25,757 nt of DNA, from positions 4,464 through 30,220 of the forward strand of contig JAMYWO010000284.1 of assembly GCA_024220525.1 (NCBI GenBank), given 5' to 3'. Source of the DNA: Cochliopodium minus (Eukaryota; Discosea; Himatismenida; Cochliopodiidae). Below the pieces are notes generated by a model. The model did not search any database, was not told where the DNA came from, and worked only from the letters and a program-made list of their open reading frames with translations. Positions within the stretch are counted from its first letter, which is position 1. The number at the start of each line of letters is the position of its first letter. A program made the position numbers and the translations under genes. Below, piece after piece: positions 1-25,757 of the stretch.

Positions 1-79
1 ATTAAAATTAAAATTAAAATTAAAATTAAAATTAAAAATTAAAAATTAAAAATTAAAAATTAAAAATTAAAATTAAAAA
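1..79. repeat. AT minisatellite at the left edge
   Basis: Tandem units of ATTAAA and ATTAAAA with no other content. It lies in what would be intron 5 of the RCC1 gene that runs off this edge. The same unit makes up the last ~65 bases of the window, so both ends stop in the same kind of repeat. Confidence 0.9.
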
Positions 80-1296
80 TGAAAAATAATAAATGAAAAA
101 TATCTCAATTTAAAATGAATTTTTTTTTGCTTTTTAGAAAGAGAGCATGAAACATCCCAACGGAAAAAGAAACAACACCTCCAATGTTTATTTCATTCCA
201 AGAGTCATTACTTTGAAAGGATTCCCAAGACCCACACCAATAGACCTTTCCGTCATCTAGTTTTTAAAATAAAAAAATTAAAAAAAAATTAAAAATAAAA
301 TAAAATAATAAATAATAAAAGAATAAAAAAATTCTAAAAAAAATCAAAAAAAATAACGAATCAAGAATGACAAATAAAATTTTATTTAAAATAAAATAAA
401 AATGAATAAAAATAATAAATCTTTGTAAAATATAAAAAAAAAAATCAAAAAAAAATGAAAATAATGAATAAAGAATAATAAAAAATAATAAATCTTTGAA
501 AAAATATATATATATTTAAAATAAATAAATATTTAAAATAAAATTTAAAATATAAATAAAAATAAGACTTTTTTGTATCATTGAAAATTGTCGAGAAGCA
601 CAAACTTGTTTCACATCTTTTAGCAGAAAAATGAATTGATTCAATTTTTTTTGTTGTACCATCCCCAACACTCCTAGGTTATTATCGTAGCTGCCTTTTT
701 TGGAAAAGTGAAAAAAAAAAAATTTTAAAAAAATAATTTTAAAAGTAATCCAAAACAAAATTACCACAACCATACAAATCTCCGTTATCTACAATATTTA
801 TAAAAAATTAATGAAAAAACTGAAATAAAATTATATGTAAAAATAAAAAATAAAAAATAAAAAATAAAATAAAAAATTTTTAATAAAAAAATAAAAATGA
901 ACAAAACAATAAACAATAAAAAATAAAATAAAAAATAAATAAAATAAAAAATAATAAATTTCAATAAAACTCTGATAAATTAAAAAAAAAATAATTTACT
1001 TTCCAAGTAAAAGGAGTGGTAAGCTCCCAAAACAATGGACTTAATATTTGGATTGTTCATTATTTTTTGAGGTGTCAAAATGTCTTCAAGATGTCCTGCT
1101 CCACATTGGCCATTTTCGTTGTGCCCGAAAGAATAAACGTCTCCATTATCTAAAGGGCAAAAAAGAAAATGGATCATAAAGTGAATTTATTGGCGGATAT
1201 TTATTTTTATTAGGCGGAGATTTATATAAATCATTTTCATTTACCTTTCATGAAAATATTGTGATACGATAAACATGATGTTGATCCAGATTTCAT
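1..1296 (-). CDS. RCC1-like beta-propeller protein, 5' part (exons 1-5)
   Basis: Partial gene of the RCC1-repeat family. Visible exons: 1296-1245, 1149-1000, 788-765 (24-nt microexon), 694-569 and 256-131. The start is the ATG of MKSGSTSCLSYHN, shared in position and sequence with the two neighbouring paralogues. Exon 2 encodes a classic blade (DNGDVYSFGHNENGQCGAG, later SIVLGAYHSFYLE), exons 3+4 a diverged blade (NGDLYGCG, then a tail ending SRQFSMIQK), and exon 5 a blade starting NDGKVYWCGSW. All visible introns are phase 1. Exon 5 ends at a GC rather than GT donor, if the phase kept by the other copies holds; intron 4 uses GTCTTA. Exons 6-10 are missing to the left, but a matching set lies at the right edge (23930-25604). 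RCC1 propellers serve either as Ran GEF or, in most protist expansions, as protein-binding scaffolds; nothing here argues for true Ran GEF activity. Confidence 0.85.
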
Positions 1297-1810
1297 CTTT
1301 TTAATTTTGGAAAGGTGATTATATTGATAGAAGAAAATTTGATTTGAATTTTAATAGATAAAACAGTCAAACAAATAATATATTTTCAATCTCTAAATTA
1401 GATATGTTAATCTAGGTTACAATGAGCATTCCCAAAAATTTTTTTTTTGAGAATTATTCAAATTAATTATAAAGATATTGTGATACAATTATTCAGCAAT
1501 CAAAAATGAAATTAAATTTCTGAAGAGAAATATGAATCAAATATCATTCTGTTCATATCAGTTTATATATAACTTCATAAATTATTAATTTTATTTTTGA
1601 GTTTATATAAATTATTTTACACTCAAAATTTTTTGATGTGGATTAATTCTTGATTTGGTAAAGTTGAATTATTTATTGGAGATTTTTTTTCATTTACCTT
1701 TATTTTTAATTTCTATTTTTTATTTTATTTTTAATTTTTATTTTTTTTATTTTTTAATTTTATAATTTTCTTTTATAATTAAATCATCTTTCCAGTTTTT
1801 AAAAAACTTC
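1297..1810. other. Intergenic spacer with a possible decayed RCC1 exon 1
   Basis: About 510 bases between the start of one RCC1 gene and the stop of the next. No open gene was found. Short stretches echo the 5' end of the left-hand gene in the same order: ATATTGTGATAC at 1475-1486 matches exon 1 (1256-1267), and a GAGATTT...TTCATTTACCTTT-like stretch at about 1679-1702 echoes its exon 1/intron 1 border (about 1217-1247). This may be a remnant of another tandem copy, or the promoter of the left-hand gene. Confidence 0.3.
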
Positions 1811-3244
1811 TTAATGAGAAAGTTTCAAGATGATTTGTTGAATGGGTTTGGGGAGTTTGATTTTGTTGGAAGAGAGGAGCACAGAATGTTTCAAACACAA
1901 CAAAAAATAGAAAACTCTTTCCTTAAACTTTTTTCCGAAAAACTTGTGGTTAGTTGTTGACCATTCCTAAAAAAAATAATAATTTAATTTCCTTAAAATT
2001 TCTTAACTAATCTCCATTATTTTATTTATTTTTTTGTTTGTTTATTTTGATTATTTTTTTTATTAATTATTAAAAAAAAATGTTCGAAATTTTACTAAAA
2101 GTTGTTGTTGATTGTGTACTAACATCAAATCATCGAAATCTAGTTTCGTCAAGGTTGTTCTGTCAGTTTTATTTCCCAATCCTAATTGGCCATATTCATT
2201 TCGTCCTCCAACTAAAATTTCCTTATTTTCTTTTTTTCATTGAGAAAAATTTTTAAAATTAAAAAATTATTTTTAAAAAAATTAAAAATTATAAAATGAA
2301 TAAATAAAAAATAAAAAAAATAATCAAAACAAGAAATAAATTTTTAAAAAAATTACTCTTTACAAAGATGGTATGTTCATAGCAGGGGATAATTGTGGAT
2401 ACTTGAGAAATGTCCAATTTGGTAAACTGATACTTTTTGATTTTATCCCCTAGACAAAGTTGGCCAAATTCATTTTCACCACAACCATAAACATCTCCAT
2501 CATCTAAAAACATTTTTTTTTTTATTTTTAGTTTGATTTTTCAAATTTTTATTTTATTTATTTCTTATTTATTTTGATTATTTATTATATGTTTTTTTGT
2601 TATTTTTTTTTCTTAATGAATTAGTTTTTATAAAATTTATTTTTTAATTTGTTTTTTATTTTTATTTATTTATTATTATTTTATGTTACTTTTCTTAAAA
2701 TTATTTTATTATTTATTTATTAATTTAAAATAATACTCTTTTTATTTTTTATTTGTTATATATTTCTTGTTATTTAGTATTTTTATTTTTATATTTTTAT
2801 TATTTATATAATTTTTTTCAATTTATATTTTATTTAATATTTATTAATTAATATTTGAATTTTAAATTAATTTATTTTATTTATTTGAATTTTAAATTTT
2901 TTATTTTTTTTTAATAAATTTTTTATTTTTTCGAACCTGTTATAATGAAATTGTGAAACCTTCCAACATGAAGAGATGAAATGTTTGGGAAAGAGTCTAT
3001 AATGATCATGCTGTATGATTGTACATAATTTCCCAATTGCCCATTTTGATAGTAACCAAAACTTTTCAAAATTGTATTTCCTTTTTGATTCCCTTAAAAA
3101 TTACCAATTATTAATTCGTGTTATTTATGAAATTTAATATTTATGATTTACTTAAATTTTTTATTACTTTTTTTTCATTTTTCATAATTTATTTCAAAAT
3201 ATTTTATAAATTTTATTTTTTATTTTTTATTTTTTATTTTTTAT

Positions 3245-5711: not shown

Positions 5712-6481
5712 TTAGGAAGAAAGTTTCAAGATGATTTGTTGGATGGGTTTGGGGAGTTTGATTTTGTTGGAAGAGAGGGGTACAGAATGTTTCAAACACA
5801 ACAAAAAATAGAAAACTCTTTCCTGAAACTCTTTTCCAAAATACTTGTGGTTAGTTGTTGACCACTCCTACAAAATTAATTATTAAAATTTAAAAAATAA
5901 AAAAAAAAATAAAAAAAATGAAAATAAAAATAATTAAAAAATAAATTAACAAAACTAAAAAAAATAATTAAACTAAAAAATAAAAATATTTTTAATATTA
6001 GAAAAAAAAAATTAATACGAGAAGAAGTTGTTGGTTGTGAAGCAACAATAAATTTTCAAATTTTAGTTCTTCAACAGATCCTCTGTTGTTGGTGTCACCT
6101 AATCCTAATTGCCCATAAAGATTTCCTCCACAAACAAAAATTTTTCTGTTTTCTAAAAAAAATAAAAAAAAAATAAATAAATAAGAAATAAATTTGTAAA
6201 AAATAAATATTTTTTTTGATTTACTGTCAACAAAAATACAATGACCAAAACCAGTAGTTACATGTGTAATATTCGAAAGACCTTCAATTCTAGAAAAAGA
6301 GATTTTTTTATCTCCAGTCTTTCCCAGTTGACCACATTCGTTGTCACCTGTAGAATAAACATCTCCGTTCTCTTTTTAACAAAAAATTTATTTTTAATAA
6401 ATTTTTTTTTTATTACTAAAAAATGAAATATTTCATTTTTTTTATTTTAAACAAATATTTTATTTTTTTTATTTTAACTAA

Positions 6482-6512
<31 letters not shown>

Positions 6513-8244
6513 TTATTTTTTATTTTTTTTTTTTTACCTAACAAAAGCAAAGTAAAGTATCTCCCACAATGAACAGAATTGATGTTAGGAAAAGTTCCGA
6601 TTTTCCCAATTACTGATGATTCACACGTCTTACCAATACCCAGTTGCCCAAAAACATTGTAACCAAAACATTTTAAAACTGTGTTTCCATTTTCTTCTAT
6701 TTTTTTAAATTAATTTTAAAAAAATATTTTATATTTAAATTATCAAGATTTTTAATTTTTTTTATCGTTAATTTTTTTTATTAGAAATTTTTTGTTTTTT
6801 TTTCCGATTACTGTTTAGAATTTTCTTAATTCTTTATTTTTATTTTTTTTTATTTTTTTTATTTTTTTTTTAAAGTAATTTTATTTTTAAATTTTGAAAA
6901 AAAATTTTCATGAAAATAAATTCCAAAATATTTACTCGTCAAAACCACAGAATGAATCGTACCACAACTAACTGAAATGGTATTTTTATCAGTCATAACC
7001 AGTGTAGGTTGTTCCACAAGATCACCACCTTCTTTAATACCACATTGTAGATAATGATTTGATCCCATTGACCATATCTCTCCATTCTCTTTTTTTAAAA
7101 TGAATTTAAAAAATGAAAAAATTAATTTAAATAAATATGATTCGAAATTAATATTAAAATCAATTAAAACAATATGAATATGTCAAAATAAAAACAAATT
7201 TTTTTATTATCATTAAGTCTCTCCGAAAAAAAAATTTAAAATTTGTTAGCGGAAAATTAACTGAATCACACGAACAAAAAAAAATTTTGGATTTTATTTA
7301 TATGAAAAATTTGTTGTGTCCCAAGAAAAAAAAATATGTAAAAAATAATTAAATAATAAATAATAAAAATATATAAAAATAGAGAATAGAAAAATAAAGA
7401 GAAAATATTTAAAAATTTTTTTTTTGATAAATAAAAATTTAAAGAAAAAATAATCTGATATACAATAGAATTTTAGATTGGAATTACTTTTGAGAAATAG
7501 GGTGTGATAAACACCAGAAGCGAAAGAAATGACATTTTCTATTTTAATTTCTTCCCAATCTTTTTCTGCTCTCTTTCCTAACTCTTCCCAAAACCCTCTC
7601 CAATAAACCTTCCCATCATCTATTCAAAAAAAAAAAAAACAATTTAAAAAAATCAAAAAAAAATAATAAAAAATAAAAATAAAAGTTAAATAAAATACTT
7701 TTTAAAATAATGGAAAAATATCTGGATGTGTAAACTTGTTTCACATTTGTTTCTATGAGACGAAAAGTAGAGATATAATCTTCATTTTGCTTTGTTATAA
7801 CATGATTATTGTTGTCTCCTTTGTAAATAAAAAAAATTAAATAAAAATTAATAAAAATAAAATAAAAATTAATAAAAATAAAATATTTTACCACAAGCAT
7901 ACAAATTTCCGTTATCTTTTCAATAAAAAACGAAGATTAATCATTTTTTTGTTAGAAAAAAATTCTCACTTTCTATGTAATATGATTGATTCATTCCCAG
8001 CACTATCGATTTTATTTTTGGATTGTTCATAATTTTGGTGGGAGTCAAAACCCCATTAATGTCTCCTGTTCCACATTGTCCAAGATTATTTTGTCCAAAT
8101 GAATAAACATCTCCATTTTCTAAAATAGTTAATTCGTAAAAAAATAAAAAAAATAAAAAAATAAAAAAAATATTATTTTGGATATTTTATACCTTTCATC
8201 ATTATAGTATGATATCCCAAACATGAACTTGAATATGATTTCAT
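5712..8244 (-). CDS. RCC1-like seven-blade propeller protein, complete
   Basis: Ten exons, spliced length about 1227 nt (408 aa): 8244-8193, 8119-7970, 7915-7892, 7818-7699, 7619-7488, 7088-6936, 6696-6538 (acceptor may be 3 nt further in), 6371-6225, 6152-6019, 5867-5712. The start MKSYSSSCLGYHTIMMK matches its paralogues. Blades include ENGDVYSFGQNNLGQCGTG, ENGEIWSMGSNHYLQCG and ENGDVYSTGDNECGQLGK. The last exon encodes EWSTTNHKYFGKEFQERVF, the hydrophobic helix and KLPKPIQQIILKLSS, then TAA; its DNA is about 93% identical to the last exon of the 1811-4784 gene although the blades are far more diverged. Intron 5 (7487-7089) is long, about 400 nt, and contains TTTGTTAGCGGA, also found in an intron of the transporter gene. 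Same inferred scaffold role as its neighbours. Confidence 0.9.
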
Positions 8245-12393: not shown

Positions 12394-13989
12394 ATGGATG
12401 AAAAGCTGCCCAAAAAAATAGTTAAAAGATACAAAATAAAACACTTGATATCCAAAAATGTAAATCTAATCATTAATATTTATCGAACAATTGATATGCG
12501 TTTATATATATAGTCGTACAATCAAATCTGGAAGGCAAAAGATAAAAAAAAGAATAGATCAGTCTCAATAAAAAGAATGATAGATGCTCTGCGAAATGAA
12601 GATGGTAATCATATAAAAAATTCGAATATGGAGAAATATTCAATAAATTTCAATATTTAAGACATTAAATCGACATACAAGCAAATCCATACTTTGAAAT
12701 CATTAAAACACGAAAATATCTTGAAAATACACAACATATATCATGTGAAAGGAGAATATGATGTATATATCACGTACCAACATATGGAAACAGATTTGGA
12801 GAAAGTGATCAAAGCGAAAACGATATTAAATCCATCACATAAAGTGTATATAAGCTATCAACTTATGAAAGTGATGAAATTTTTGCATTCAGCGGAGATT
12901 ATTCATTTGGGTTTGAGAGTAAAAAAAAAAAAAAAAATTTTCTTTTTAAATTAAATTTGTTTTTTTTGAAAAAAGCCTGGAAGAATTCTAGTAAATTCAG
13001 ATTGCTCTATAAAATTGAAAGACTTTGTTTTTTCTAGTTCGCTTTTAAATAAAAAAGAAGATGATTATTCTCAATGTAAAAAATTTATTTAAATTATTTT
13101 AAATTTATTAAATATTTAGTCAATAAATTATTAAATTTAAATTGATCAATTTAATCAAACTTTTCAAAAAGCTATTGTGTATCAATCTCCCGAAAGAATA
13201 TTTGGGACTGAAAACATTGATAAAAGTGTTGACATGTGGAGTGTAGGTTGCATTATCGTGGAAATGTATTTATCTAAATTTCTCTTTCCAGGGAACTCAA
13301 TATTGAATCAAATTGGTAAAAATTTTTTTTTTTTATGAAATACAATCCATTTTAATTTTGTATAATATTTTATTTATTTTTATTTAATTCTTTGGTGTTC
13401 GATTTTATTTTTGTTTTTTTTTTTGATAAAAGAAAAAATATGCGAAGTGTTGGGTTTTCCAAAAAAAGAAGACATAGATACCTTTAAATCAAAGTACACA
13501 AAAACACTACTAGAAATGGCTCACATTACAAACATAACCCCTCTCGAAGATCTCCTACCCAACCTCGACAAAGACCAACTAAATCTCCTTCAAAACTTGA
13601 TCGTCTTTAATCCAAGCAAAAGACTCACCGCGGAACAAGCCCTCTCCCATCCTAGTTTTAAACTTTTACACGACAAAAAGAACGAACCCGTTTGTGAAAA
13701 ACCCTTATTTTTTTTACATCAACCTCTTGTTGACCATCCTTCTTTTAATAATTTTTTTGAAGAAGATGCTGTTTATTTTTGTGTGAAAACTAAGAAATTC
13801 ATCTTTTTTATGTTGCTTTTCAAGAAGCATTTCAATTCTCGATATAAGTTTCCTTTGCCTCGGTTGGTCCTTTATTTGATCATCAAACATTGCATTTCAT
13901 ATCGGGACTATCAAGTACAAGACAGCAAAGTTTTGTTGGATAAATATTTAATTCCCAAGAAAAAAAAGAAAAAAAATAAACTCAAATAA
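12394..13989 (+). CDS. MAPK15/ERK7-like pseudokinase with RCC1-type C-terminal tail
   Basis: Six exons, spliced length 1215 nt (404 aa): 12394-12459, 12514-12604, 12662-12918, 12976-13075, 13172-13315, 13433-13989. Start MDEKLPKKIVKRYKIKHL fits the MAPK N-terminus. Family match: WKAKDKKKNRSVSIKRMIDA (VAIK Lys kept), YQHMETDLEKVIKAK, DMWSVGCIIVEM, FPGNSILNQIEKICEVLGFP, LLQNLIVFNPSKRLTAEQAL. Catalytic motifs are lost: the GxGxxG loop reads SKNSYN, HRD reads HLG, the Mg-binding Asn of LKPSN is Arg (LRPGR), DFG reads DFV, and the activation loop is short with no TxY (NKKEDDYSQSIVYQSPE). All fall in well-spliced exons with an intact frame, so a selected pseudokinase is likelier than a dead gene. 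The C-terminal ~90 residues are not MAPK-like; KKFIFFMLLFKKH, then FPLPRLVLYLIIK, resembles the RCC1 tail of neighbouring genes without gaps. It ends in a lysine run. Likely a signalling scaffold. Confidence 0.85.
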
Positions 13990-14206: not shown

Positions 14207-14911
14207 ATGAATAAAGTATATGGAGTATTATTCATTTTATTTTGCACAATAATGGTATCATATTGTACAAAATTAGAAAAGAAAGATATTGGAGATTTCC
14301 CATTGGTATTGGAATATCTTGGAAGTTGTGAGGATTTCGATAGAGATTATAATACATTGAATGCAAGCACATTTCAACATGGAAACTGTTTGCCAATAGC
14401 AAATAGCTCAAATGGAGAAGTACCATTAGACGAAGCAGATTTGACAACAACATATGTATGTACTCCTGTAACTGATGGAAAATCGATGGTGCATTTCATC
14501 TCCATCGCAAATACAACCTCATCTGTATCAAATTTTGTAGTATCATTCATCCCATCCAATCCATTCAAAGCATGGGGGACAAATAACTATCAAAGAAGAC
14601 CAGATTGTGATAATGCGAAGAATATATGTAATGATAGTGAATTTGTTATATCATGCAAAGACAATATCGTTGATCTTAGAGGATCATTTGTTATCAATCA
14701 AGATAGAATCTATATCTTTCCATCTGGTGTTTCTGCATCCACATGCAACTTTTTGGGTGCACCTTGCCACTATGTGAGCACCCCTGCAGTGAATGGATAT
14801 TGTGCCTATGAGGCTCCTTCTGATTTTGTGGTATTGGAATCTCCTCACTTTGATGATTTTGAATTCAGAAAGATTAAAAATGGATATCATGATGATAAAT
14901 ACAAGTATTAA
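14207..14911 (+). CDS. Secreted Cys-rich protein, short form
   Basis: A single exon of 234 codons. I place the start at MNKVYGVLFILFCTIMVSYC (14207), which gives a clean signal peptide and matches MNKY... of the next paralogue; the upstream in-frame codons lack ATG. The mature protein has the family pattern YLGSCEDF, NCLPIA, a Cys in TTTYVCTPV, FVVSFIPSNPF, YQRRPDC, a Cys in FVISCKDN, DRIYIFPSG, STC, PCHYV and GYC, so about eight cysteines could form four disulfides. Several N-glycosylation sequons occur (NAS, NSS, NTT). Unlike its two paralogues it stops shortly after the domain, in a short charged tail (GYHDDKYKY). I do not recognise the family. Extracellular or cell-wall location is inferred from the signal peptide and the cysteines. 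Confidence 0.8.
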   Translation: MNKVYGVLFILFCTIMVSYCTKLEKKDIGDFPLVLEYLGSCEDFDRDYNTLNASTFQHGNCLPIANSSNGEVPLDEADLTTTYVCTPVTDGKSMVHFISIANTTSSVSNFVVSFIPSNPFKAWGTNNYQRRPDCDNAKNICNDSEFVISCKDNIVDLRGSFVINQDRIYIFPSGVSASTCNFLGAPCHYVSTPAVNGYCAYEAPSDFVVLESPHFDDFEFRKIKNGYHDDKYKY

Positions 14912-15073: not shown

Positions 15074-15135
15074 TGGCAAGTTTAATTAAAAAAAAAAAAT
15101 AAAAAAAATTGAAAGGAATATTTGATCAAAGAAGA

Positions 15136-16934
15136 ATGAACAAGTATTTGTTGATATTTTGTATTTTTGTTTACCTATCATACTCCATAAAGGTAACAAG
15201 ACAATCAACATCTGTATCATTATCAATAGAATATTTGGGAAGTTGCAAAGATTTTGCAAAAGATAAAAGTACACTCTTCGTGAGTAATTGGGTAAATGCA
15301 ACATGTTTGCCAATAGCTGCTGATGGATCATTGAGAGATATAAACGACATAAAACCTACCCAATTCTGTGTAAATATCAACGACAAGAAATCAATCATAA
15401 ATTTTGTAGGATTGCCAACATCATATGCTCTATCATTTGTACCAACAAATCCATTTCGCTCAATGCTTAGCAAAAATTATATCAGAAGACCAAATTGTCA
15501 GGTGAAACAAGAATACATGACAACATCTTTATCTGTCACTGCATGTGCTGATAATAATGTGGAGATTGATACAGGATATGTGGTATCAGATGATAGAATC
15601 TATATCTTGCCTGTTGGATCAGTTGCATCTACATGTTTCGATACAACCAATGGATGCTGTCCATATATCAACACCAATATCAATAATGGGATCTGCCCAA
15701 ACAAGGCATCCAAGAGAAAATTGAAATTATATTTTATAAATGTTGAAACACCTGTGGATGCAAATAGATATAGCAAGGATGATTTCACCATCGAACCAAA
15801 GAAAAAAATCAAGGAAACCCACAAATATGGTCACCAAGATAAGTATGATAAGCATAATGATAAGCATCATAATGACAAGAGTTATGCCTACAAAAAGAAT
15901 GAACAAGCAAATATTAATCCATCTGTTTCTGATAATTCAAAGAATGATGTTAATAACAAGAATGAGATCGTCATCGAGGTTCAATCCATCACTAATATCG
16001 AGAATAAACAGTTGGGAAAGAATATAGTTGCTGATGAACAAGAAGAACAAGTATCCAATACTAATATCCACCTCAGCAAGAAAGGAATCAACAATTTGGC
16101 TGGTGGAAGAAAGGGGCATCATTCCTCTGCACATCAAATGGGATCCACCAACAATAAGAATAAACCATCTTCTCCTGCATCATCCAATAGCAAATCTTCT
16201 CCATCCAAATCAGCTAATGACGCAATATCTCCTAAACCTGCTGCTAAAGTCCAATCTCCATCTAAATCTCCATCTCCTGCTAAATTTTCATCTAGCACCA
16301 CAACTTCTGTTGGTCAAAAGAAAAGTTCAAACAAGGATTTGCCTCCATTCCATTCTTTGTAATTATAAATTTCAAAAGACATTTTTTTTTTTCCCAAATT
16401 TTTAAATTGCATTTCAAAAGAGATGAACCATCTGATGAAGATGAAGATCTTCCTTTTTCAAATCAAATCAATTATGCCAACGATAATTTAGTGGATATCT
16501 ATGAAGATGAACCCACTGAGTCCACTCAACAAAACCAAAGACCACACCACGAACACCACGAACACCACGAACATAACCAACACAAACCTCAAAGCAGACC
16601 AACCCAAAGTCCCGAAGACGAAAGCGATATGCCTGTTGATACTGGAAATCTCGTCATTGATAATTCCTACGATAAAAATGCAGAGGATTTTGATGATTTT
16701 GATAGAGATTCTGTTTTTCCTGATGATTATTCTCAAGAGGATCACTCTAATCGCAAACCAAACAGACCTAAGAACAACCCTAAATTCAAGCCTACCAACA
16801 ACAAACCAAATAAGTCTGAGAAACAAGAGGAGGATGACTCTGAGTCTGATGATGATTCCATTTTCACCACTTCTCTCCAAAACAGTAAAACCCCAAAAAC
16901 TATTTTTAGCATTCAAAAGAAACAAATTCAATAA
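15136..16934 (+). CDS. Secreted Cys-rich protein with long low-complexity tail
   Basis: Two exons, 15136-16358 and 16421-16934, spliced to 1737 nt (578 aa). The start MNKYLLIFCIFVYLSYS is a signal peptide; codons upstream (TTGAAAGGAATATTTGATCA) lack ATG. The N-terminal ~200 residues repeat the family domain: EYLGSCKDF, TCLPIA, FALSFVPTNPF-like LSFVPTNPF, YIRRPNC, DRIYILPVG, STC, GCCPYI, GIC. The tail is disordered: His/Lys/Asp-rich (HQDKYDKHNDKHHNDK), then Ser/Pro/Lys-rich (SPSKSPSPAK), then acidic, with an EHH repeat from 9-nt tandem units near 16545-16577. The 62-nt intron (GTAATT...AAAAG, pyrimidine tract before the acceptor) joins in frame at phase 2; the TAA at 16360-16362 overlaps the donor, so an unspliced message would end there and give a 408-residue form. 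The second exon has no ATG of its own at its start. A cell-surface, cyst-wall or metal-binding role is possible but unproven. Confidence 0.7.
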
Positions 16935-17587: not shown

Positions 17588-18133
17588 ATGTGGTCAATAG
17601 AATCATGGGGAAGGCTAGAACAAGAAATTGAACGAGCTAAAAAAGATCATATCCAAATCAATTACAACGATAGACAAGAATACAAAACAATATATGTTCT
17701 GACCAAAGAATACTATGATCTCACACATGAAATGAATAAAAAATCATCTTGCGATAATAAAGAAATAAAAACAAATAAAAAAAGAAAATCTGAAGAAGAA
17801 AATCTTCAGACATTAATCACGTATAAGCAAAATACATCATCGAAAAGAAATAACAATATAAGCTATAAAGAACAAGAAAAGAAGAATTATAAGGAGAATA
17901 GCGAGGATAATGGTGAAGATGAGGATAAAGAAGCCAAGCAAAGGAGGATAGTGAATTCCAGGCTCAATAGATTGCTCGATTGGCAATATGAGGTATTGAA
18001 GAAGAAATTCCTCGTCAATCGATTCCCCAAGGCAAATGAGCTCACCAACATCGCTGAGGAATTGGATGTGCCCTATACTAAAGTCAAAAATTGGTTTAGA
18101 AATCAACGTTTCAAGATGAAAGAAGCCAAATGA
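17588..18133 (+). CDS. Homeodomain protein, copy 1
   Basis: A single exon of 181 codons, ending TGA. The N-terminus MWSIESWGRLEQEIERAKKD is shared with the copy at 19219 and may be an interaction motif. A charged, Lys/Asn/Glu-rich linker (residues ~55-118) leads into a C-terminal homeodomain of about 60 residues: VNSRLNRLLDWQYEVLKKKF, then FPKANELTNIAEELDVPYTK, then VKNWFRNQRFKMK. Trp48, Phe49, Asn51 and Arg53 of the recognition helix are all present and residue 50 is Arg. Spacing between helices 1 and 2 is that of a typical homeodomain, without the three-residue TALE insertion. It should act as a nuclear DNA-binding regulator. Tandem duplication with 19219-19650 is clear. Confidence 0.88.
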   Translation: MWSIESWGRLEQEIERAKKDHIQINYNDRQEYKTIYVLTKEYYDLTHEMNKKSSCDNKEIKTNKKRKSEEENLQTLITYKQNTSSKRNNNISYKEQEKKNYKENSEDNGEDEDKEAKQRRIVNSRLNRLLDWQYEVLKKKFLVNRFPKANELTNIAEELDVPYTKVKNWFRNQRFKMKEAK

Positions 18134-19218: not shown

Positions 19219-19650
19219 ATGTGGTCTATTGAATCATGGGGAAAACTTGAACAAGATTTTGAAAGGGCACTTAAGGAGGATAAAAAGCAGGATTTCGATG
19301 AGAATCAGGAATACAAGACAATCTTCTTGTTGTGGGACAATGAGATCAACAAGAACAAGACCAAGATGATCGAGGTGAAGGAAAACAAAGAAAAATCAAA
19401 AAAGAGAAGAGTAAGTGATAGTAAAGCTCCAAGCACTGTCACTGTAAAAAAACCATCGAGAGAATCGCCTGAATTTCGTGTAAATTCGAGAATGTTGTAT
19501 AATTGGCAGTATAAATATCTGGAGGAGAAATTTGTGGAGGATAATTATCCCGATGACGATGAGATGTCGGTGATAGCGAAGGAACTTGAAATCACTCTGA
19601 AAAAAGTGAAGAATTGGTATTATAATAAGAGGAAGAGATCAGGAAAATAA
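19219..19650 (+). CDS. Homeodomain protein, copy 2
   Basis: A single exon of 143 codons, ending TAA. N-terminus MWSIESWGKLEQDFERALKE and the following NQEYKTIFLL parallel copy 1 (RQEYKTIYVL); the linker is about 35 residues shorter. The homeodomain occupies the C-terminal third: FRVNSRMLYNWQYKYLEEKF, then YPDDDEMSVIAKELEITLKK, then VKNWYYNKRKRSGK. Trp48, Asn51 and Arg53 are kept, but Phe49 is Tyr and residue 50 is Tyr instead of Arg, so its DNA preference probably differs from copy 1. A basic cluster (KKRRV) in the linker may serve as a nuclear localisation signal. The gene is convergent with the PP2C gene, stop codons about 200 nt apart. Confidence 0.88.
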   Translation: MWSIESWGKLEQDFERALKEDKKQDFDENQEYKTIFLLWDNEINKNKTKMIEVKENKEKSKKRRVSDSKAPSTVTVKKPSRESPEFRVNSRMLYNWQYKYLEEKFVEDNYPDDDEMSVIAKELEITLKKVKNWYYNKRKRSGK

Positions 19651-19850: not shown

Positions 19851-21598
19851 TTAATTTTCTTCAATGTCATCTTTGTCGTTGTCCTTGGAACGGCTTATTT
19901 TCTTTGGGACAATTTTTGGTCTCCTTTGTTCAAAGCTTCCACTGTTTGTGTTGCTAATAAAAAAATAAAAATAATTAAATGATAAAAAATGAAAAAATAA
20001 AATAAAAAATAAATAAAAATACTTATTTTCATTATTTGAATTGTTTATATTATTGTTAGTGTTGATGACAATGTTGGTGGTGGACAAGAGAGACATGATT
20101 TGTCTTTTCTTCTCTTCTTTTTTGATTTCGTTGGATTCGTGAATGGAGCTGAATTGGTTGACAGAAGAGACGAAGTGAGCTTTTGGATGGAAAACGACAA
20201 TTACACTGATGTTATCTTTTGAGCCTAAAATAGAAATAAAAATAATTAAAAATAATTTAAAAATAAAATAAAAATTAATTAAAATTAAAATCTAATCAAA
20301 AAAAATCAAAATAAAATGTGAAATATTTCCCAAAAAAAAAAAAATTAATTTATAATCCAAATTTTATGAAAATAATTTTAAAGTAAAAATAGAATAAATT
20401 AAAATACATAAATAAAAATGTGAAATAAAAAATAAAAGTAATTAAAATAATTTATACACAATAATAAAACTAAAAATTAATTAAAATTTAGTTTTAAAAA
20501 AATGATTATGATTTAAATAATTAAAAAAAAATGATTAAAATGATTTAAAATTTTAATTTTGTAAAAATGATTTTGAAAATTTCAAAAATAAAAAAATAAA
20601 AAAAAAATATTGAAATTAATTTAAAAAATTTTAAATTAATTATTTATTATTTTTTTTACCTAAACATAATGCAGTTTCTCTTAAAACAGAAGCAACATGT
20701 TTTTTACAAGAGTTTCCTTTGTTTCTTATGTAATCCACAACTATATTGACTGCCTGAGTGTCTGTCAGCTCGTCCCACAAGCCATCACATGCCAAAATGA
20801 GGAAGGGAAACTCTTCGTTCAAAATATATGGTTCCTCAAACTCTTCTTCAATGTTGTCATAAGGCTAATCAAAAAAAAAATTATTTTTAAATATAATTTT
20901 TTCTTTTTTTTTACATTTTATTTTTATTTTTTTATTTTTATAATTTTTTTTTTATTTTTTGAAATAAAATTAGTAAATTATTTGTTTTTATTTTGTTTTT
21001 TAGTTTTTTGTTTTTGTTTTTATTTTTATTTTTGTTTTTGTTTTTGTTTTTTTATTTTTAGTTTTTTGTTTAAATATTTGTTTTTATTTTTAGTTTTAGT
21101 TTTATTTATTTTTTCAATTTTTAATTATTTTACATTTATGAATTATTTTATTTTATTTAATTTAAAAAAATTTATTCTTTATTTTTATTATCAATTTTTT
21201 TGTTATTTTTTTGTTTTTTTACTTGTTGAAGAATGGCAGGATGTTTGGTGTTGCCCAGGGCACGGGAAACAGCGATATCTCCGTTGACTCTCCCTTCGTT
21301 AGAAATGAAAGAACCCTGCGAATGCAAAAACTTCCTTTCATAAGTAGAATCCGCTTTGTGGTCTTTGGTAGCTCTTTAAAATATATAATAAATTATTTTA
21401 TTTATTAATATTTTTTATTTTAAATTATTTTTTTATTTTATATAATATTTTTTATTAGAATTTATTTTTAATTTTATTTTTCATTTTTTATTTATTAATT
21501 TTATTTTTTATTCATTATTTATTTTATTTTTTATTTTTTATTTTTTATTTTTTATTCTTTATTTTTTATTTTTTATTTTTTATTTTTTATTTTTTATT
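19851..21598 (-). CDS. PP2C-family Ser/Thr phosphatase, 3' part
   Basis: Visible exons: 21373-21223, 20864-20660, 20224-20033 and 19953-19851 (TAA). Phases agree (0, 1, 2). Motifs in order are those of the second half of a PP2C catalytic domain: TKDHKADSTYERKFLHSQG, GRVNGDIAVSRALGN, FPFLILACDGLWDELTD with the metal-binding Asp of DGLWD, and SKDNISVIVV with the conserved DN pair. The visible part therefore looks active. A ~75-residue Asn/Ser- and Lys-rich tail follows (NTNNNINNSNNEN, RRPKIVPKKISRSKDN). The first half, with the RYEMEDA-type motif and the first metal-binding Asp residues, should lie upstream, but the sequence breaks off at the N at 21599 and none is found beyond it. Role: Mn/Mg-dependent dephosphorylation of phosphoserine and phosphothreonine in the cytosol or nucleus. 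Confidence 0.85.
20225..20659. other. Long AT-only intron of the PP2C gene
   Basis: A 435-nt intron made of A/T runs between two PP2C exons. Donor GTAAAA after the codons for CLG, acceptor TTTTAG. I see nothing else in it. Confidence 0.7.
21519..21598. repeat. TTTTTTA tandem repeat abutting the N
   Basis: About ten units of TTTTTTA with one TTCTTTA variant, ending directly at the ambiguous base. Such a tract is a common site of assembly breaks and false joins. Confidence 0.85.
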
Positions 21599-21599
21599 N
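21599..21599. other. Ambiguous base (N): probable assembly join
   Basis: The only N in the window. To its left the PP2C gene lacks its 5' exons; to its right a different minus-strand gene lacks its 3' exons. A single missing base cannot account for both losses, so this position probably marks a join of two sequences that are not adjacent, or a collapsed gap. Confidence 0.75.
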
Positions 21600-22421: not shown

Positions 22422-23867
22422 ATGATGAAAGTAACACTTTTGTTGATTTGCTTGATGATCGTATTGATCGCTGCAAAATCAGAATTGAACCAAATCAAAC
22501 AACAATTTGCAAGAGGAACCCAATTGTCCCAAAAGGCTGCAACCAGAGGAAGATTCAGAGTAGCATATCAAGGAAGCTGCGCACAATTCTTCAGACAATC
22601 TGTCAGTGTCAGCAAATATGTTGCTAATGGTAAAGAAAAAAAATTAATCAAGAAGAAAATAAATTCGATTTCGAATAAGAACATAAATACAATCTTGATC
22701 AATCAGATCTATTATATTTTTAAAAATAATATTTATATGTATCTTTTTTTCCATTTTAATTATTAAACTCATTATTATCTTTTATATTTGAACATCTGCT
22801 AAATGAAATGATAATAATAACATTCAATCTTTGAACATATAATCGATGTTTTGTTTGATAATAATTTTTAATTTTTTAATTTACCCTTGTTATTTTAAAA
22901 ATAAAATAAAAAAGGATGTTTGCCTATCAATGGTACTGATGATGCTGCAAATTTGAATGCAGATGTACAATGCCAAAATATCAGAAGAAACAGATCCGTC
23001 GTTACTATCCTTAATGTCTATGAACAATCCACAAGAAAAGTATACAGATCTCCATTTGTGGTATCCTTTAAACCTACCCGTCCTATCTTGACCCCACAAA
23101 GAGTATATGCAAGAAGACCATCATGTAATGTTGAAAAATCTGTATGTGGTGATAATATTGCAGTTGTCAACAGATGTGATAATAGCGAAGTCACTTTGGC
23201 AAAAGATGGATTATATGTCCTCAATGATGATATCATTTATTTGGCAAGCAGTAAATCCCTCAATCTCAGCCAATGTCATCCAGGAACTTTGGCAACATGC
23301 TGTTCATATGTCAATCCAACCGGAATGAGTAAGAAATAAATATAATATTTAATATTTAAGCCTTTATAATCAATTATAATCTCCCAAATATTTTTAATCA
23401 AATGAAAACCAAAACCAAAATATAAAATTTCTCTAATTATTACTTTTAATAATTTGTGTACTTAAATAATCTCAAAGCAAAATTTTATTTCATTAATGTT
23501 ATAAATTATATGATTTATAATCGCATTATTCCCTATATCTCTCTCACGATACCCATTATAAATTCAAACTAATGCATTTTCTTTATCAATAATAATAGGT
23601 GTATGCCCAAACACCCCATCTACCGGATTGTTGACCTACATCCCATCCAAAAAGGGTCCTACTGTAGTTTTGAGCGCAAAGAACAACAAGGCATCCAAGA
23701 AGCCACTCAAGATCAAACAAGAAGAAGATTCAGAACAATCTGAAGAAGAACAACCTGTCGAAGATGAAGAAGACGAGGATTTCTCCAAGAAAAAACTCGG
23801 AAAGCCAATCAAATCTTCCAAGAAGGTTAAAGCAAGCAAGAGCAAGAACATTGACTTTGAATTTTAA
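22422..23867 (+). CDS. Secreted Cys-rich protein with acidic/basic tail
   Basis: Three exons, 22422-22629, 22915-23328 and 23599-23867, spliced to 891 nt (296 aa); both introns (285 and 270 nt) are phase 1. Signal peptide MMKVTLLLICLMIVLIAAKS. The family pattern is kept: AYQGSCAQF, GCLPING, a Cys in DVQCQN, FVVSFKPTRP, YARRPSC, NRCDNS, DDIIYLASS, SQC, TCCSYV and SVCPN. The last exon encodes a disordered tail, first acidic (EEDSEQSEEEQPVEDEEDED) then Lys-rich (GKPIKSSKKVKASKSKN). Compared with the two paralogues at 14-17 kb it has an extra basic stretch before the domain (ARGTQLSQKAATRGRFR) and introns inside the domain, so it is the more distant member. Function unknown; secreted or cell-wall location is inferred. 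Its stop lies 62 nt from the stop of the convergent RCC1 gene. Confidence 0.82.
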
Positions 23868-23929: not shown

Positions 23930-25757
23930 TTAAGAAGAAATTTTAATGATAATGTGTTGGATGGGTTTGGGGAGTTTGATTTTGTTTGAATGAAATTGCT
24001 TGGTATGTTTCAAACACAACAAAAAGTGGAAAACTCTTTCCTTAAACTTTTCCCCAAAATACTTGTGGTTAGCTGTTGACCATTCCTATCAAAATAAAAA
24101 ATAAAAAATATTTATATTTATATTAATAAAAATTAAAATCAACTAAAATAATTAATATTCAAAATAGTTCTTTAAAACAAAAAAGATCAATAATTAATTA
24201 CAATGATGGGTTGTTGGTTTTGAATGAACATCATGTTTTCAAAATCTAACTTTAGGGGAACATTACTCTTCTTTTTATTTCCCATTCCTAGTTGTCCATG
24301 TTCATTGGCTCCACAGACAAATATTTCATTATTTCCTTCAAATTTTTATAATTAAAAATTGAAAATTAAATTGAAATAAAAATAAAAATTAAAAATTTAA
24401 AAAAAAATAAAATGAAATGAAAAATAATTACTGTTAACAAAGATAGAATGACCGTAACAAATGACAATTTGAGAAATGTTGGGAATATTTACTTTGGTAA
24501 ATGTATATCTTTTTCCTTCGTCTCCCAAACAAAGTTGGCCATCTTCATTTTCTCCAGTGCCATAGGCGTCTCCATCCTCTAAAATTAATTTTATTTTAAT
24601 ATTTTTTAATTTTATTGATTTTTATTTTTATTTTTTCATTTTTTTTGTTATGTTAATTTAATTTATTTTCATTTATTTTAATTTATTTTAATTATTTTAT
24701 TTTATTTTAATTTAATTTAATTTATTTTATTTTAATTTATTTTAATTTATTTTAATTTATTTTAATTTATTTTAATTTATTTTAATTTTTTGTTATTTTT
24801 ATTTTCTGATTTTTTTTATATTAATTTTATTATTTTTTTTTATTTTTATTTTTTATTTTTCTTTCAAATATTTTTATTTTTTGATTTTTTTTTATATTAA
24901 ATTTTTTAATTTTTAATTCTAATTTTTAATTATAATTGTTTCAATTTTTATTTTTCATTGAATACCTGTCAAAAGGAATGAATGAAATCTCCCAATGTGA
25001 AGGGAAGAAATATTTGGAAAGGTATTAATTGTATTAATTTTGAAATCATTGTCGCTGTGTCCATTTCCTAATTGTCCAAAGTTATTGTACCCAAAACTTT
25101 TCATACTTGTTTTTCCGTTTTCGTCTTCTTTTATTTATTATTATCAAATTTTTTAATTTACATGAAAACAAAAATGTTATTTTTTTAAATTTATTTTTAA
25201 ATTAATTTCATTATTTTTATATTTAATCATTTTTGCTTTTTTTAATTTTAAAATTTTTTTTTTTTATTTTTTAAATTTTAAAATATTTCTTAAATTTTTT
25301 TTTATTTTATTTTTTTATTTTTTATTTTTGAATTATTATTTTTTTTTACTTATTTTTTAAAAATTTTTTAAAAATTTTTTTATATTTATTTTTTGAATTA
25401 AATTTATTTTTTTTATTTATTTTTGTCATTTTTTTTGTTATTTTTTTTTACTGAGTAAAATGAAAGAATGTATGGATCCACAAACAACAGAAACAATGTT
25501 TTTGTCAATCATCAAAAAAGTGGGTTTAGAAATTCTAGATCTATCTTTCGGTATTCCACATTGGCCATATTCATTCGATCCCATAACAAACACTTCTCCA
25601 TTTTCTAAAAAAAATTTAAAAAAATTTAAAAAAAATAAAAATTAAAAAATAAAAATATTAAAATAAAAAAAATAAAGTAAAAATAAAAAATATTAAAATT
25701 AAAAATTAAAAATTAAAAATTAAAAATTAAAAATTAAAAATTAAAAATTAAAAATTA
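23930..25757 (-). CDS. RCC1-like beta-propeller protein, 3' part (exons 6-10)
   Basis: Visible exons: 25604-25452, about 25127-24966, 24578 to about 24433, 24335-24202 and 24085-23930 (TAA). Sizes and phases match exons 6-10 of the complete paralogues (153, 156-162, 147, 134, 156 nt). Blades include ENGEVFVMGSNEYGQCGIP, SFGYNNFGQLGNGHSD, EDGDAYGTGENEDGQLCLGD and NNEIFVCGANEHGQLGMG. The last exon gives EWSTANHKYFGEKFKERVF, the helix HFLLCLKHT, and KLPKPIQHIIIKISS. Exons 1-5 are absent: the window ends in intron 5 within an ATTAAAA repeat. The complementary half (exons 1-5, ending at phase 1 in intron 5 within the same repeat) is at the left edge, and the two halves would give a 409-aa protein of normal structure. 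It is therefore probably the same gene as 1-1296. Confidence 0.87.
24727..24785. repeat. 10-bp tandem repeat in an RCC1 intron
   Basis: About six units of TTTTAATTTA inside the intron between exons 7 and 8 of the right-hand RCC1 gene. The surrounding intron (about 24579-24965) is T-rich on the plus strand and holds nothing else recognisable. Confidence 0.8.
25693..25757. repeat. AT minisatellite at the right edge
   Basis: Nine to ten units of ATTAAAA running to the last base. Same unit as the left-edge repeat and in the corresponding intron of an RCC1 gene. Confidence 0.9.

Follow-up and report, generated by a model that had tools for sequence, protein, structure and literature searches.

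A C-terminal module shared by an ERK7-like pseudokinase, RCC1 proteins and other scaffolds of Cochliopodium minus, and its candidate role in ubiquitin ligase docking

Gene content of the window

The window (the whole stretch of DNA that was analysed, 25,757 bases of a 44.65-Mb assembly of Cochliopodium minus) has a G+C content of 23%, and its introns are short and AT-rich. Both ends of the window hold RCC1 genes on the minus strand, and a kinase gene lies between them on the plus strand (Table 1). Pfam recognizes an RCC1 repeat of gene B in 7941-8186.

Table 1. Kinase and RCC1 features of the window
Feature	Position	Strand	Remarks
Fourth RCC1 gene	1..1350	-	From the ORF list; runs off the left window edge, tail outside the window
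RCC1 gene A tail exon	1811..1966	-	Gene body to about 4805
RCC1 gene B tail exon	5712..5867	-	Gene body to about 8186
ERK7/MAPK-like pseudokinase gene	12394..13989	+	Hand model, six exons, 404 aa
Pseudokinase exons	12394-12459, 12514-12604, 12662-12918, 12976-13075, 13172-13315, 13433-13989	+	In-frame hand model
Pseudokinase C-terminal docking module (putative)	13753..13899	+	Phe at Trp position, predicted helix KKFIFFMLLFKKH, loop, predicted PLPRLVLYLII helix
RCC1 gene C tail exon	23930..24085	-	Tail quoted in the original prediction; AG acceptor directly before GAATGG
RCC1 gene C repeat exons	24187..25641	-	Glycine signatures; contig (30,220 bases) ends at the right window edge, start may be missing

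Several other genes are found in the window. Two paralogous genes (17588-18133 and 19219-19650) both start with MWSIESWG(R/K)LEQ; a homeodomain (Pfam 2.3e-11) forms the end of the first, and its paralogue looks similar. Paralogous Cys-rich, secreted-looking proteins (14207-14911, 15109-16362 and 22422-23339) have GSC...F, P..P and RRP.C motifs in common, and one of them carries a long low-complexity tail. The best Pfam match in the two pieces of these proteins that were scanned had an E value of only 0.087. Exons on the minus strand in 20640-21375 read ACDGLWDELTD and GDIAVSRALGN, which we take to resemble a PP2C phosphatase. One unknown base at 21599, beside a TTTTAT-rich repeat, is a masked or uncertain assembly position.

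The ERK7-like pseudokinase

The hand model of the kinase gene contains five GT-AG introns of 54-117 bases each. A changed genetic code and a pseudogene were considered for the in-frame stops of the gene and rejected, as the stops fall in these introns. The protein matches the MAP kinase chain 6v6a (E 3.1e-73) over residues 4-340; the listing names the chain a mitogen-activated protein kinase, and it is presumably ERK7. In the catalytic motifs of the window protein HRD reads HLG, the following Lys is replaced by Arg, the metal-binding Asn is also replaced by Arg, and DFG reads DFV. Judged by its sequence the protein is therefore a pseudokinase, as the original prediction of a dead kinase had it. 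It has the kinase fold in common with ERK7/MAPK15 but lacks the HRD Asp, the metal-binding Asn and the DFG Gly that mark active protein kinases, and it carries a tail module behind the kinase fold. A second ERK7-like pseudokinase, a paralogue on contig C179, was assigned by its likeness to the window kinase.

A shared C-terminal module

The original prediction held that the kinase and the RCC1 proteins share one C-terminal tail, and the strings on which it was based are present in the last exon of the kinase gene and in the tail exon of RCC1 gene C. A single RCC1 tail gave at least 150 matches in the genome (the best 150 of 396 candidates were scored). A profile of 30 RCC1 tails, from which L009 and L010 were omitted as near copies of L007, was compared with the 536 window ORFs of at least 25 residues. 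The three RCC1 tails scored 97-100 bits, and the kinase exon ranked first of the remaining 533 ORFs with 16.5 bits (runner-up 8.5 bits), with an E value of 0.27 when scaled to the genome. A second profile of 73 tails was iterated over the ORFs of 93 loci and the window, the kinases being excluded from training by design. With this profile the window kinase scored 31.9 bits (E 4.2e-6 at the estimated genome scale) and the C179 kinase 19.4 bits (E 0.033).

The predicted sharing of the tail also held against shuffled sequences, at a margin that depended on the profile. With either profile, the 5000 composition shuffles and the 5000 hydrophobic-pattern shuffles all stayed below the score of the window kinase, which exceeded the pattern-shuffle maximum narrowly for the RCC1-only profile (13.9 against 13.8 bits) and widely for the 73-tail profile (34.8 against 18.6 bits). 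The C179 kinase scored 2.9 bits with the RCC1-only profile, a value reached by 305 composition shuffles and 285 pattern shuffles out of 5000 each, and 21.5 bits with the 73-tail profile, where 0/5000 shuffles were as high.

The kinase tails are also matched by tails of SPRY proteins. A profile of 13 SPRY tails, containing no kinases, recognized the window kinase with an E value of 6e-7 and the C179 kinase with 0.006; a profile of ankyrin and Kelch tails gave only 0.89 for the window kinase. One SPRY-protein tail used as a genome query matched both the window kinase (E 1.1e-3) and RCC1 tails, while the C179 kinase tail as a query matched three SPRY-class tails (1.4e-5, 0.009 and 0.028). Pairwise scores with two SPRY-class tails and with the tail of RCC1 gene C were 96, 81 and 58 for the window kinase and 86, 98 and 29 for the C179 kinase. 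Among the sequences compared, the nearest relatives of the kinase tails are SPRY-protein tails elsewhere in the genome. On these comparisons the kinase tail is homologous to the RCC1 tails within one family of modules of about 50 residues, and the kinases look as though they acquired a SPRY-type copy.

The consensus of the 73-tail profile reads eWstenHkffpkefkekiftflLclKrfsklnskikiPKpvlfiIikfilkns. The module begins with a Trp/His/Phe cap, followed by a first hydrophobic helix (predicted, of the form V-x2-F-L-L-x2-K), a variable loop, L-P-K and a second predicted hydrophobic helix. A Trp opens the matched stretch in 72 of the 73 modules. The module is usually the last part of the protein: in 67 of the 73 no more than 10 residues separate its end from the stop. 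Of 70 sequences measured, 62 have a distance of 31-40 residues from the Trp to the Pro of the LP; for the remaining eight the pattern caught an earlier Pro. The kinase tail does lie within 13700-13989, where it had originally been placed, but the module proper covers only about 13753-13899 (13774-13899 as aligned by the 73-tail profile, 13753-13773 from the alignment to the second kinase). Likewise, an ungapped register of 24 residues between a Lys and the LP had been proposed for kinase and RCC1 tails. The arithmetic is right, but this is not the best alignment; profile and pairwise RCC1 alignments place gaps in the loop, and the spacing from Trp to LP varies. Structure models of an RCC1 tail and a kinase tail, each built from an input alignment of four sequences, gave helix, LP loop and helix at low confidence (mean pLDDT 66 and 53). 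A PDB fold search with the low-confidence RCC1-tail model gave no match, and the tail sequence searched against the PDB gave only two chance-level matches (E 0.31 and 0.82).

Scaffolds bearing the module

The module family occupies at least 265 distinct places on 159 contigs. These places come from two single-sequence genome searches (the best 150 of 396 and the best 150 of 281 candidates, merged) and include the window kinase and the window tails; some are partial, and the weakest, with E values up to 0.08, are candidates. The scaffolds that bear the module are RCC1, ankyrin, Kelch and SPRY proteins, the two ERK7-like pseudokinases, a Ras/Rab-like GTPase and ribosomal-P0-like proteins, in classes that were assigned by hand, several SPRY-class members being placed by tail likeness. 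RCC1 glycine signatures lie upstream in 38 of 40 RCC1-class loci and on the opposite strand in none (0/40). Pfam supports the ankyrin (E down to 5e-35, eight ORFs), Kelch (6.5e-53) and RCC1 (2e-48) scaffolds and the L10P insert (2e-15) of the P0-like scaffold L068; the SPRY match is weak (2.7e-5) and, like the Ras match of the GTPase L095 (0.0015), lies below the curated cut-off. For ankyrin, Kelch, GTPase and Skp1, scaffold and module occupy one ORF. In the RCC1, SPRY and P0-like cases the module is on an exon neighbouring the scaffold exon, and the two are joined by predicted splicing.

Profiles made from one scaffold class recognize modules of the others. At E < 1e-3 the SPRY-only profile found 34 of 41 RCC1, 5 of 8 ankyrin, 4 of 4 Kelch and 7 of 7 other tails, and the RCC1-only profile, with classes held out, found 9 of 13 SPRY, 8 of 8 ankyrin, 0 of 4 Kelch and 5 of 7 others. 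The homologous LP-containing module that had been proposed for two unrelated scaffolds is thus found on more than two. Closure of an RCC1 blade was rejected as the role of the tail, which also occurs on ankyrin, SPRY, GTPase and kinase scaffolds.

Some of these genes are unusual in themselves. L067 (C233) and L068 (C156) are paralogues that resemble ribosomal P0 (uL10) and carry the module near the C-terminus; in L067 it is followed by a terminal stretch with FALFGGDD, reminiscent of an acidic stalk tail. The ORF of L095 (C591:3100-3700, minus strand) holds the C-terminal part of a Ras/Rab-like GTPase and then the module, which we take to be reminiscent of animal Rab40 with its SOCS box. L094 looked like an LRR protein by eye and was discarded as such, having no Pfam match.

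Outside this genome, a protein database that may hold few eukaryotic gene models contained no relative of the tail at thresholds of 10, 1 and 0.01. One pattern matched 18 stretches in IMG/VR viral contigs, none of which was confirmed as a relative, and no description of such a module was found in the literature listings searched. Similar W-H-FP-LLL-LP tails may exist in other protists. Within the one genome that furnishes the evidence, and on gene models made by hand, this is a real, large and unnamed module family of which the window kinase is a member.

Skp1 fusion and ubiquitin ligase components

A genome search for Skp1 gave six matches, and two of these loci (on contigs C33 and C78) also match the module profile. 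Skp1 of this genome is found on contigs C60 and C175. The C33 gene (L080, 588-1596) consists of a 294-residue ORF and a second exon across a GT-AG intron, which together give a reading of 318 residues. Its protein holds, in order, ankyrin-like sequence (read by eye; Pfam ankyrin has no match in that exon), the module, a divergent POZ part and a well-conserved C-terminus of Skp1. The module starts at residue 89 with WSQELHYLFPESVKDIISTFMFCL, followed by a long loop and SFLPFHLIKKIILESI. It is a weak, long-looped member of the family (22.9 bits, E 0.0027, with the first 31 residues alone aligned by the 73-tail profile); at 25.2 bits, none of 5000 pattern shuffles scored as high. The Skp1 domain (PF01466, E 1.1e-20) covers residues 272-317, and 26 of the last 33 residues are identical to those of an ordinary Skp1 of the same genome. 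The C78 copy (L078) has 41% identity over query residues 1-193 and is broken by stops and frame changes. The two fusions are probably the result of one event. Gene fusion is classical evidence for a shared pathway, and the C-terminus of Skp1 is the part that holds F-boxes. Here the partner fused to the module is the adaptor of SCF ligases, which suggests that the tail serves to connect its proteins to a ubiquitin ligase.

Other ligase components are present in the genome. Cullins gave 29 matches on eight contigs, 26 of them above the cut-off, and contig C31 holds a Skp1_POZ match with no Skp1-domain match. Ordinary F-boxes occupy at least 150 places, so a second type of box needs a reason. Among the places listed, these at least 150 scored F-box places and the at least 265 module places do not overlap. 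At L096 (C191) and L097 (C4) a module gene is followed on the same strand, at a distance of about 250-300 bases, by an F-box gene. Two F-box places, these at 245 and 301 bases from modules, were considered as fusion partners and were read instead as separate downstream genes.

Proposed function of the module

The leading reading, which is given an even chance, is that the module is the receptor-side box of a cullin-RING ligase and acts most likely via Skp1. One homologous module sits on many unrelated binding scaffolds of this genome. The predicted LP helix, which resembles helix 1 of the F-box, would dock on a surface of Skp1, and a cullin would be recruited. Substrate choice would fall to the scaffold (RCC1 propeller, ankyrin, SPRY, Kelch, GTPase or dead MAP kinase). 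The ankyrin-like/module/Skp1 protein would then be receptor and adaptor in one chain. The pseudokinase would itself act as a receptor: its dead kinase fold would hold the substrate and bind former partners of ERK7, which would be ubiquitinated. The tails had been proposed as docking modules for one complex; a role in ligase docking is plausible and is strengthened by the Skp1 fusion protein, and it stays a putative role. A more specific picture is put forward only tentatively, as possible rather than probable: an unnamed, massively multiplied Skp1-docking box with the LP helix last may have made ligase receptors of RCC1 propellers, SPRY proteins, a GTPase, P0-like proteins and a dead MAP kinase, and may once have been welded to Skp1.

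If the receptor-box reading is right, a eukaryote would have evolved a separate receptor box beside the F-box, and the box would have spread over several of the scaffolds on which animals carry the SOCS box, a strong case of convergence. The pseudokinase would exemplify the reuse of a kinase fold as a receptor for degradation. Through the fusion of module and Skp1 the docking partner is open to a direct test. Should the partner not be Skp1, there would still be many proteins of this genome with a common domain that Pfam does not recognize in the 60 copies scanned.

A docking or oligomerisation function outside the ubiquitin system, such as attachment to a membrane or a cytoskeletal scaffold, or self-association, is conceivable for the module but rather unlikely. 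Scaffolds as diverse as these, which include ribosomal-P0-like proteins and a GTPase, need not imply ubiquitination, and the predicted hydrophobic helices could self-associate. A tail of this kind is harder to reconcile with the existence of the Skp1 fusion and with a list of scaffolds that is rich in substrate-receptor folds.

Relation to the F-box, PRANC and SOCS box

The receptor-side box favoured here was compared with known boxes by scanning 60 modules against Pfam (13 of the 73 were omitted as near copies or partial). None of the 60 was accepted by the F-box models (scan E up to 10; HMMER filters drop most matches above 0.1), and the suggestion that the module is loosely F-box-like finds no support in Pfam. 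Nine families appeared in the scan with one member each (best E 0.057-0.23). A loose regular expression for the LP loop and the hydrophobic pattern of helix 1, applied without a background control, fits 71 of the 73 modules. Like the F-box (PF00646/PF12937), the module has an LP followed by a helix-like stretch with hydrophobic residues at matching places, and the fusion gene links it naturally to Skp1. Unlike in the F-box, with its order H1-H2-H3, the LP segment is the last element and comes behind the Trp/His cap and a further helix-like stretch. The module lacks F-box helices 2 and 3, and its position in the protein is C-terminal.

Shortened F-boxes are known in poxviruses. In a review of poxviral ankyrin proteins (PMC4353913), the PRANC or ANK-F-box is described as a C-terminal truncated F-box behind ankyrin repeats that binds Skp1. 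According to the same review, most Skp1 contacts are made by helix 1 and the preceding loop, and poxviral F-boxes cut to two helices, once effectively to the first, still bind Skp1 (PMC4353913). None of the 60 modules matched PRANC (PF09372), and the module differs from PRANC in that it belongs to a cellular genome and is also joined there to RCC1, SPRY, Kelch, GTPase, P0-like and kinase scaffolds. Receptors with divergent boxes have also been reported from Dictyostelium: a study of Skp1 pull-downs (PMC9485057) lists 38 interactors with F-box-like sequences, many of them divergent, and 18 further interactors that have receptor domains and in which no F-box was found. Boxes that escape detection are therefore not strange.

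It has also been suggested that the module is loosely SOCS-box-like, and it could be a counterpart of the SOCS box, with helix 1 as the binding site for an Elongin-C-like protein and the LP segment as that for a cullin of the Cul5/Cul2 type; this is improbable. Both are C-terminal, about 40-50 residues long and have an LP in the second half. In animals the SOCS box is joined to SH2, WD40, SPRY, ankyrin, LRR and GTPase scaffolds, according to PMC4812663, and the range of scaffolds found here, with SPRY, ankyrin and GTPase, is similar. The solitary Skp1_POZ match on C31 would also be in keeping with such a partner. The motifs of the SOCS box are nearly or wholly lacking, however. The BC box consensus occurs in 0 of 73 modules, and the Cul5 motif LP-hydrophobic-P, as given in PMC4812663, occurs in 1 of 73; the SOCS box model (PF07525) matched 0 of the 60 modules and Pfam SOCS_box has no match in the genome. 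The fusion partner, moreover, is a Skp1 with a well-kept C-terminus. The module is read here as one that would act like an F-box or a SOCS box but belongs to neither.

Probable conservation and origin of the pseudokinase tail

In the pseudokinases the tail could be a decayed relic that has lost docking, the proteins working otherwise. In the alignment both kinases have Phe in place of the Trp, and the window kinase also lacks the His/Phe five residues on; the cap, moreover, aligns partly with an ordinary C-terminal helix of the MAP kinase match. Decay is nevertheless improbable, since the likeness between the two kinase paralogues extends along the tail and takes in KFPLP and what follows (34.7 bits and E 1e-6 for the window kinase with the C179 tail as query), which suggests that the tail is kept. 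A chance likeness between hydrophobic, AT-biased sequences, to which the narrow pattern-shuffle margin and the genome-scaled E value of the RCC1-only profile might point, is very improbable in view of E values of 4e-6 to 6e-7 with kinase-free profiles, reciprocal matches of SPRY and kinase queries, and the low score of the next window ORF.

The original prediction had further linked the kinase to the RCC1 genes as chromosomal neighbours. A special kinship with the neighbouring RCC1 genes does not hold, the kinase tails being closest to SPRY tails among the sequences compared. The neighbourhood looks incidental, because the C179 kinase lies about 23.5 kb from the nearest module place among those listed on its contig.
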